Shown in pieces: positions 247-4,974 of a DNA stretch of 48,228 nt. Source of the stretch: a virus; IMG/VR virus record IMGVR_UViG_3300025117_000095, positions 1-48,228 of that record. One strand, 5' to 3'. The notes under the pieces are model-generated. The model saw only the letters and a list, made by a program, of their open reading frames with translations, had not been told where the DNA came from and did not search any database. The stretch's first letter is position 1; every line of letters begins with the position of its first letter. A program made the translations under genes and the position numbers.

Positions 247-690
247 TCACCCTGTCTCCCTCTTTATTGCGGTCTCAACCCGGGAACGCGATGATCCGCA
301 CGCGGCCTCCACTGAGGGCCTGATCACGTCGAAAGCCATCGCTGCCATGTGAGGCAGGCAGGCGACGAAGCGCGCGGCGAGCTGACGGCGGTCGTCCTGC
401 TCGAGCCGCGTCATGTCTCGGAGCGCCAGGACGAGCGCCTTCTCGTCCTCGGCCAGCCCCGCCAGCTCGTCCCCCTCGCGGACGAGAACCAGGCGCGCGC
501 CGCAGGCGGTGGCCCATGCGGCCGCCTCTTCGAGCCTGATGCGCTGCTTATCCCTCTCGATCCGATTCACTGATTCCCGCGGGAAGGCCCCCTCGTCGTC
601 AGCCAGCCTTTCGGCGAGATCCTTCTGGTTCAAGCCGGAAGCTATCCGTAGGTCAATCAGCTCTTTCATGAGTGAGTGCATTTCTATCAC
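247..690 (-). CDS. XRE-family repressor-like protein (CI analogue)
   Basis: 147 aa with an N-terminal helix-turn-helix (about residues 8-62: LRIASGLNQKDLAERL, then ESVNRIERDKQRIRLEEAAAWA). A helical C-terminal half with no protease motif follows. The GTG start at 690 is chosen because AAGGGG sits five bases upstream; ATG codons at 681 and 669 are alternatives. It is divergent from the Cro-like gene at 751, with PR between them, the arrangement of a lambda-type switch. An operator-like site (676-690) overlaps its start codon, suggesting autoregulation. No RecA-cleavage site (Ala-Gly plus Ser/Lys) is evident, so induction may use the antirepressor at 8285-9328. The repressor role is inferred from position. 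Confidence 0.75.
   Translation of the reverse strand: MIEMHSLMKELIDLRIASGLNQKDLAERLADDEGAFPRESVNRIERDKQRIRLEEAAAWATACGARLVLVREGDELAGLAEDEKALVLALRDMTRLEQDDRRQLAARFVACLPHMAAMAFDVIRPSVEAACGSSRSRVETAIKRETG
676..690. promoter_or_regulatory. Operator-like site OR3
   Basis: 15-bp site GTGCATTTCTATCAC, one base off the GTGA-N7-TCAC pattern shared by the other sites. It overlaps the start codon of the repressor-like gene. Confidence 0.4.
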
Positions 691-1475: not shown

Positions 1476-1600
1476 CCTCTCCCGCATGGACACATCCTCC
1501 AGAAGTGGGAATCGGAAGAGGGAGCGGGGACGGTTTCATGGCGGCCTCCGTACGTCCTACGTGGTGGCCCCGACACAGTTTCAACGCCCGGAGTGACTCC

Positions 1601-2002
1601 ATGACACCTAAACAGATCGACAACTGGTTCACCTACCACGCCCCCACTGAGGAGACGGCGCCGAAGTACGCAGCCATCCGTGAAGCGGAGACCAGGGTGC
1701 GCAACATCCTGTTCGCGTGTATTGCTCATCCGAAAGACATCAAGGCGTGCTTCGATGCCATCAACGCCGCTTGCCGCAATCTCGCCGAGGTAATTGACGC
1801 CCAAGCACCTGACTGCGCCGACAAGACCGCCGCGATCCGGTGTGTCCGCCTCGCCCGCAACGCCGCCAACGAGGCGATCGCGACGATACATGGAGACGTC
1901 GCCATAGAGGAGATGATCAGCCTCTGCCTCCAGGAGTCCTTGGCCGAAGCGATGAAGGCTCGTTGGCAGGCCAACAGCGCCATCGCGTGTGACTGTCGAT
2001 GA
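1601..2002 (+). CDS. Acb2/Tad1-hairpin-like protein with insertion; candidate cyclic-nucleotide sponge
   Basis: 133 aa. Residues 4-29 (KQIDNWFTYHAPT, then KYAAIREAE) and 58-94 (CRNLAEVIDAQAPDCADKTAAIR, then ANEAIA) match the small phage family with FTYHxP, YxxIRxxA, PxxADxxAAIR and AxxANxAIA, which I associate with the Acb2 anti-CBASS sponge. Family members are about 65-90 aa. Here about 28 residues (30-57, with three Cys) are inserted between the two halves, and about 38 residues follow. Characterised Acb2 proteins sequester cyclic di- and trinucleotides and so block CBASS or Thoeris signalling. Start chosen at ATG 1601 with GGAG nine bases upstream. Early position fits a counter-defence role. 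Binding is not shown by sequence. Confidence 0.6.
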   Translation: MTPKQIDNWFTYHAPTEETAPKYAAIREAETRVRNILFACIAHPKDIKACFDAINAACRNLAEVIDAQAPDCADKTAAIRCVRLARNAANEAIATIHGDVAIEEMISLCLQESLAEAMKARWQANSAIACDCR

Positions 2003-2457
2003 CACCCGCCCAACGCCACCGCCGCGCCCTCCAGGAGCGCATCCTTGACGACGTCAAGGCCGCCTCGGGCGCCACCGATGCAGAGGTCGCCGGGTGGGCG
2101 TCTGTGGACCGCTCCGAGATCTCCCGCTGGCGCAACGGCGAGCGCCCCATCACGGCTGTCGAGCTGCTTGGCATCGTCCGGGGGCTCGGAGACGCCGTCC
2201 CTGTGCTCCGCCCCCTCGCCGAGGCGGGCGACTGCGACGTCGTTCACAGGTCGGGCGAGGCCACAGGCGATGTCGTGGGGCGGGCCCTGGGAGCGATGGC
2301 GGGCTCTGGCGCCCTGGTCCGCGAGCTCGCCGAGGCGCTGGCGGATGGTCGGGTCGACGACCCTGAGCGGGCGAAACTCCTCGAAGCGATCCGGAAGCAT
2401 CGGATCGCTGTAGAGCAACTCGAAACGGAGCTGCGGGCGCCACGGAGCGGCCGCTGA
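1999..2457 (+). CDS. CII-like HTH regulatory protein
   Basis: 152 aa. Starts at the ATGA overlap with the previous gene. The N-terminal third carries a helix-turn-helix (DAEVAGWASVDRSEISRWRNGERPITAVELLGIV is residues 27-60). A Gly/Ala-rich middle follows, then a C-terminal helical segment (about residues 117-145: ALADGRVDDPERAKLLEAIRKHRIAVEQLETEL). This plan resembles phage CII/CP76-type regulators. A role in the lysis-lysogeny decision is inferred from the family and early position. Confidence 0.65.
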   Translation: MTPAQRHRRALQERILDDVKAASGATDAEVAGWASVDRSEISRWRNGERPITAVELLGIVRGLGDAVPVLRPLAEAGDCDVVHRSGEATGDVVGRALGAMAGSGALVRELAEALADGRVDDPERAKLLEAIRKHRIAVEQLETELRAPRSGR

Positions 2458-4686: not shown

Positions 4687-4974
4687 ATGACCAGACCGAT
4701 CGGGTATGAGCACACCCACGTCCGTAGGCATCGCTGCGTCCGGTGTGGAACATGCTGCACCCGCTCGACATGTGAGGTCGGCTCCTCCCATCTCACGGGG
4801 AAGTTGGAGTTTGAGCCCGGTCCATGCCCCTGGCTCCGCCGGGACGGCTCACGGGCCTCTTGCGGGCTACTGGTCGAACATCCGGAGGAATCCAAGCGGC
4901 TTCTCATCGGCCGAGGATGTGGCTATCGAGCGGGCCTCTCCAAGACAGAGAGCGCGGAGGCTGACGCCGCATGA
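4687..4974 (+). CDS. YkgJ-like Cys-cluster protein
   Basis: 95 aa. CVRCGTCCTRSTC near residues 17-29, then PCPWL and RASCGLL, and a final RGCGY, fit the Cys pattern of the YkgJ-type putative zinc- or iron-binding family (CxxCGxCC with later Cys). ATGA overlap with the helicase gene downstream. The family has no settled biochemical role. Confidence 0.65.
   Translation: MTRPIGYEHTHVRRHRCVRCGTCCTRSTCEVGSSHLTGKLEFEPGPCPWLRRDGSRASCGLLVEHPEESKRLLIGRGCGYRAGLSKTESAEADAA

Follow-up and report, generated by a model that had tools for sequence, protein, structure and literature searches.

A long form of the Acb2/Tad1 hairpin family with a predicted hairpin-in-hairpin architecture, encoded in a viral genome: a candidate cyclic oligonucleotide sponge

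The hairpin gene and its surroundings

The window analysed in this study, a viral record of 48,228 bases, carries terminase, portal, tail sheath, repressor and CII-like genes. Close to its beginning lies an open frame with an ATG start and 133 codons, which encodes a protein of 133 amino acids. The following features were located in this region:

247..690, minus strand: divergent phage repressor-like HTH protein (phrog_3, E=1e-6)
1590..1593, plus strand: GGAG, a likely ribosome binding site, 7 nt upstream of the ATG of the hairpin gene
1601..2002, plus strand: gene of the enlarged Acb2/Tad1-hairpin protein, read as a nested-hairpin form (PF24729, canonical-family HMM, full-length relatives)
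1999..2457, plus strand: CII-like transcriptional activator (phrog_101, E=9e-12), the start of which overlaps the stop of the hairpin gene

A purine-rich stretch also precedes the start codons of most of the long relatives described below. Codon comparison of 1601-2002 with eight relatives gave a pN/pS of 0.47-0.74, with pS near saturation, and the frame is therefore coding. Two further frames were noted in the window: 1065-1379 on the minus strand, a frame of 104 amino acids between the regulators and the hairpin gene, matched no PHROGs or Pfam family, and 4687-4974 on the plus strand, a Cys-rich frame of 95 amino acids (HRCVRCGTCC...) upstream of a helicase gene, matched no Pfam family.

The preliminary description of this DNA assigned the protein to the Acb2/Tad1 hairpin family, and profile searches bore this out. 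The protein matched PF24729 (Acb2/Tad1 hairpin) in two stretches with E=6e-6 and 26.8 bits, just under the curated cut-off of 27 bits, and the cut-off itself was reached by four of its long relatives (L121, L006, L052 and L100; 27.0-31.4 bits). Residues 1-66 taken alone matched positions 1-30 of PF24729, and the last 90 residues matched positions 14-57. Moreover, an HMM built from 73 distinct short relatives, hereafter the canonical profile, gave 79.4 bits for the protein. By these profile matches, the open reading frame is a member of the PF24729 family. NCBIfam and PADLOC gave no meaningful match for it, and sequence searches of the PDB, whether the query was the single protein or the long-form alignment, returned chance matches only.

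A predicted hairpin within a hairpin

The protein was also described as nearly twice the normal length, and it is indeed about 1.8 times as long as its short relatives, which are mostly 67-89 amino acids. The short PF24729 phage proteins, such as Gordonia phage ScarletRaider gp23, Paenibacillus phage Bob BOB_74 and L056, share with the long form the FTYHAP motif, helix 2, the P.SAD turn, helix 3 and the AN.AIA end, and both are encoded by small accessory genes. In contrast to the long form, the short proteins have one hairpin and about half the length, and they lack C81 and the ARNA.NE and ARW signatures.

The additional length had been explained as a 28-residue insertion between the two conserved halves of the family, followed by a 38-residue tail. 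On this explanation, a normal Acb2 hairpin, its helix 2 interrupted by the insertion and its C-terminus extended by the tail, would bind a different nucleotide. A single global alignment against short relatives does give one 28-residue gap with about 38 residues left over; the 28 extra residues between the conserved parts and the roughly 38 after them are thus real. However, the inserted stretch contains a second match to helix 2, the supposed tail closes with the family C-terminal motif in all ten long members, and the predicted model has four separate helices and not an extended helix 2. An insertion with an added tail was thus judged very unlikely.

The order of the profile matches suggested another anatomy. 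The canonical profile matched long members three times in order, at its positions 2-45, then 21-68 and then approximately 50-70, which correspond to helix 1 with helix 2, to the whole of helix 2, turn and helix 3, and to the end of helix 3. All long members with an examined alignment, L130 included, showed this order. In the window protein, positions 2-37 fell at helix A (up to position 45 in relatives) and positions 21-68 at residues 48-95. Profile-profile comparison with the canonical profile gave E values, each for a single comparison, of approximately 5e-5 for helix A, 1e-12 for the B-C hairpin and 1e-6 for the C-terminal block.

The third, C-terminal match is weak in individual proteins yet specific. 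The C-terminal segment of the window protein alone scored 8.1 bits against the canonical profile, and this score was reached by none of 500 shuffles. Among nine members, five gave 0/500 and eight gave at most 4/500, the weakest being L098 with 22/500, and the match of L130 was reached by 0 of 1000 shuffles. Furthermore, in 970 control C-termini, scores above 6.0 bits occurred only in true family members, T4 Acb2 among them, and the best unrelated control stood at 6.0 bits. Because this match is specific, the 38 C-terminal residues are the displaced second half of an outer hairpin.

An AlphaFold2 model made with nine long members as input (mean pLDDT 94.9, pTM 0.88) consists of a short helix and four separate helices, without any beta-strand. 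The family layout, a short helix followed by antiparallel helices, is thus preserved with four helices in place of two; the predicted model of a short relative has helices at 4-10, 21-40 and 46-67. The elements of the window protein are as follows:

1607..1627, plus strand: short helix 1, residues 3-9 (AlphaFold2 model, DSSP)
1628..1648, plus strand: N-terminal motif FTYHAPT, residues 10-16, with Y12 corresponding to Y8 of T4 Acb2 (register through PF24729)
1658..1726, plus strand: helix A, residues 20-42, assigned as helix 2 of the outer hairpin (AlphaFold2, canonical HMM, block profile)
1739..1804, plus strand: helix B, residues 47-68, assigned as helix 2 of the inner hairpin (AlphaFold2, B-C block against the canonical profile)
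1817..1888, plus strand: helix C, residues 73-96, assigned as helix 3 of the inner hairpin, with the long-form signature (AlphaFold2, canonical HMM, invariants)
1907..1987, plus strand: helix D, residues 103-129, assigned as helix 3 of the outer hairpin (AlphaFold2, C-terminal block against the canonical profile)
1958..1990, plus strand: family C-terminal motif ARWQANSAIAC, residues 120-130, matching canonical ..MTANAAIAC (HMM 56-69)

The profile order 2-2-3-3 points to a nested hairpin and not to a tandem repeat; a simple tandem duplication, which has the helix order 2-3-2-3, was rejected on this ground. The architecture is very probably that of one hairpin set into the turn of another within a single chain, as judged from the profile order and the predicted model, in which the pairing of the helices would follow from short loops and homology. 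The nested hairpin probably arose by internal duplication, although two separate duplications of helices would look alike. The sites of length variation also support the nested reading, as members differ in length chiefly at the A-B and C-D turns. L104 has, in addition, one insertion in its B-C turn. In T4 Acb2 (vs.4, L124:18079-18345), 77 residues span the 58-position hairpin profile, so the length of the arms already varies in the family. The open-access papers searched gave no account of an Acb2 hairpin that is duplicated or nested.

Fold searches with Foldseek against the PDB returned generic four-helix bundles for the long model, with no Acb2 among the matches listed, which is a weak test for such small helical folds. 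The same search with a short relative returned T4 Vs.4 at E=7.9 and a TM-score of 0.56, and the profile of short relatives weakly matched 'Acb2 homolog 43' (9ptq, E 2.8e-4). The long-form profile weakly matched the start of T4 Vs.4 (AIKDAEVRL against AIREAETRV).

Long-form relatives

At least ten distinct proteins have this long form, namely the window protein, L121, L095, L006, L096, L052, L098, L100, L104 and L130. The identity of eight aligned relatives to the window protein was 43-59%, with L121, from a bacterial MAG, at 59%. A single scan of IMG/VR with the window protein as the sole query found no relatives, and recovering them took alignment queries and motif patterns: a scan with a small family alignment gave many short relatives and one full-length protein, L006, and further scans and motif patterns gave L052, L095, L096, L098/L099, L100-L103, L104 and L121. 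L130 was found by a later genome search in the same MAG as L121; it was absent from the building of every model and therefore served as an unseen member. Among 379 genomes of the phylum of this MAG, full-length members were found solely in that one MAG. No relatives were found on plasmids, and the named phage collection gave weak matches to short relatives only, L006 having no match there.

The signatures C[IV]R[LI]ARNA.NE and ARW.A are common to all ten long members, and the enlarged form is therefore an established, distinct subfamily, the long form of the Acb2/Tad1 hairpin family. The nine further homologues with the same enlargement, which the preliminary description had proposed to look for, also show that the long frame is not a sequencing or frame artefact. 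In a viral structure library, the long-form model returned one match, A0A6J5S3V7, an unannotated protein of 128 amino acids from an uncultured Caudovirales phage (BFVD). This was a full-length fold match (E 2.6e-6, TM-scores 0.73/0.75) with 40% identity, and the protein is probably another long-form member.

Other enlarged proteins were also encountered. In L119 (1520-2119), a short-type hairpin is fused to an extra C-terminal region of approximately 130 residues, which represents another route to enlargement. Mycobacterium phage Phabba gp146 (L004/L043) has 142 amino acids, with a single normal hairpin and a long tail rich in Ala and Pro; in contrast to the nested form, the C-terminal motif of this protein keeps its place.

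The neighbours of the long members vary and include regulators in the window, a terminase gene in L099 and an exonuclease-like gene in L103. Across the contigs of long members, no shared gene neighbourhood or operon partner was found, save one weak resolvase match. These unrelated surroundings and, in the window, the location next to a CII-like gene are compatible with an early accessory gene. The MAG with L121 and L130 also encodes a CBASS-type oligonucleotide cyclase (L125, G001:C152, 349-2820; PADLOC PDLC00791, E 5e-119), the gene of which adjoins an HNH protein and a WYL/WCX regulator; the region may represent a CBASS locus, whether intact or partial.

Conserved residues and proposed function

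Acb2 is a hexameric sponge for cyclic di- and trinucleotides (PMC12043709, PMC10419184). In T4 Acb2, the Y8A substitution disrupts the binding of cyclic dinucleotides, and Phe82 makes a stacking contact with the ligand (PMC12657218). Acb2 proteins of phage T4 (Vs.4, PDB 7uq2) and of Pseudomonas phages (e.g. PDB 8H2J) are anti-CBASS sponges, which take up cyclic oligonucleotides and rescue phage growth on CBASS cells. With them the long form shares the PF24729 domain, the Tyr8 equivalent Y12, helix 1 with a hairpin and a similar end of the C-terminal helix. They differ from it in having 88-94 amino acids, a single hairpin and a hexameric assembly, which in Acb2 has three dinucleotide and two trinucleotide sites, and the overall sequence similarity is very low. 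Alignment supported the retention of the nucleotide-binding residues of the family in part: Y12 was invariant in 9/9 aligned long members and also present in L130, and the equivalent Tyr was found in all 73 short members, whereas the position of Phe82 is Ala in the window protein, as it is in 70/73 short members, and varies within the Pfam family. The Asn of helix 3 that is invariant in the family (column 63) corresponds to N90 in helix C, where it was kept in 9/9 members; in helix D it was kept in 4/9 and replaced by Cys or Ser in 5/9. The outer pocket may therefore differ from that of the family.

The long form has invariants of its own, which include C81, N87, E91, R121 and W122, and its signature in helix C comprises C81, R83, A85-A88, N90 and E91. 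Only C81, which lies outside the insertion, is an invariant cysteine. The three cysteines of the insertion, to which the preliminary description had drawn attention, did not prove meaningful, since none of C40, C50 and C58 is conserved in the relatives; for the same reason, the cluster was rejected as a metal or disulfide site.

On the basis of these observations, the following mechanism is proposed. An existing Acb2-like hairpin would have received in its turn a complete helix 2-helix 3 hairpin, probably a duplicate, and the single chain would form a bundle of one short helix and four helices. The conserved N-terminal FTYHAPT loop would come close to AN.AIAC, the C-terminal end of helix 3, where the outer hairpin has its base. 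By homology, the two would bind a cyclic oligonucleotide that a host defence such as CBASS produces, so that the effector would be deprived of its signal. The inner hairpin, which has no N-terminal motif, might take the place of an adjacent protomer in the Acb2 oligomer. The assembly would then consist of fewer chains, perhaps three, and its pockets would possibly be asymmetric. We assign a probability of roughly 0.6 to this explanation as a whole, a long nested-hairpin subfamily acting as a cyclic oligonucleotide sponge. As judged by homology, the protein probably sequesters cyclic oligonucleotides to counter CBASS-type defence, which is its most likely function. The presence of a CBASS-type cyclase gene in the MAG with two long members was counted for the sponge reading and may be a coincidence. 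Counted against it were the fold-search results, the varying outer-hairpin Asn, the Ala at the Phe82 position and the standing of the closest short relatives, which are themselves putative sponges linked to solved Acb2 only through PF24729 and the weak 9ptq profile match.

It is also conceivable, though clearly less probable, that the nested fold was kept while nucleotide binding was lost, the protein having been recruited elsewhere, for example to bind a host or phage protein. Such a role is consistent with the incomplete conservation of the outer-hairpin Asn, with the lack of an operon partner common to the phages and with strong long-form invariants, such as C81, N87 and W122, which were not seen in short members. 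However, residues 1-23, with the N-terminal motif and the Tyr8 equivalent, are among the best conserved parts of the protein (mean identity 62%), which argues against a loss of binding.

Within the sponge reading, it is plausible that the pocket, the oligomer or the ligand is altered in the long form, as had been suggested. A stronger version, in which nested duplication gave a single-chain two-hairpin unit that assembles from fewer chains, has two non-equivalent pockets and captures one or more signals that ordinary Acb2 cannot, would be speculative and is doubtful. A different immune signal from that of Acb2, such as a larger cyclic oligonucleotide or gcADPR as in Tad1, bound in pockets rebuilt within one chain, seems improbable. 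The long-form invariants located towards the ends of both helix C and helix D would suit it, and the Tad1 hairpin supports other ligands (PMC12043709). Tad1 (Thoeris anti-defence 1; PDB 7uav, 8smd, 8kbb) has a C-terminal two-helix hairpin with the same Pfam domain as the long form. However, in Tad1 an N-terminal beta-sheet precedes two long helices; this sheet is absent from the long form, which is predicted to be all-helical with a second hairpin as its extra mass.

In conclusion, the long form is, on the strength of its sequence, a genuine and recurrent variant of a known counter-defence family, and its role as a sponge is suggested by homology. For annotation, it gives a warning: Pfam scores the long form near threshold, PADLOC and NCBIfam have no useful match, and plain alignment misreads its anatomy. 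Acb2 and Tad1 are among the main phage sponges that disarm cyclic-nucleotide immunity, and hexameric symmetry sets the number of their pockets. A hairpin-in-hairpin subfamily would show how such sponges escape hexameric symmetry and diversify their ligands.
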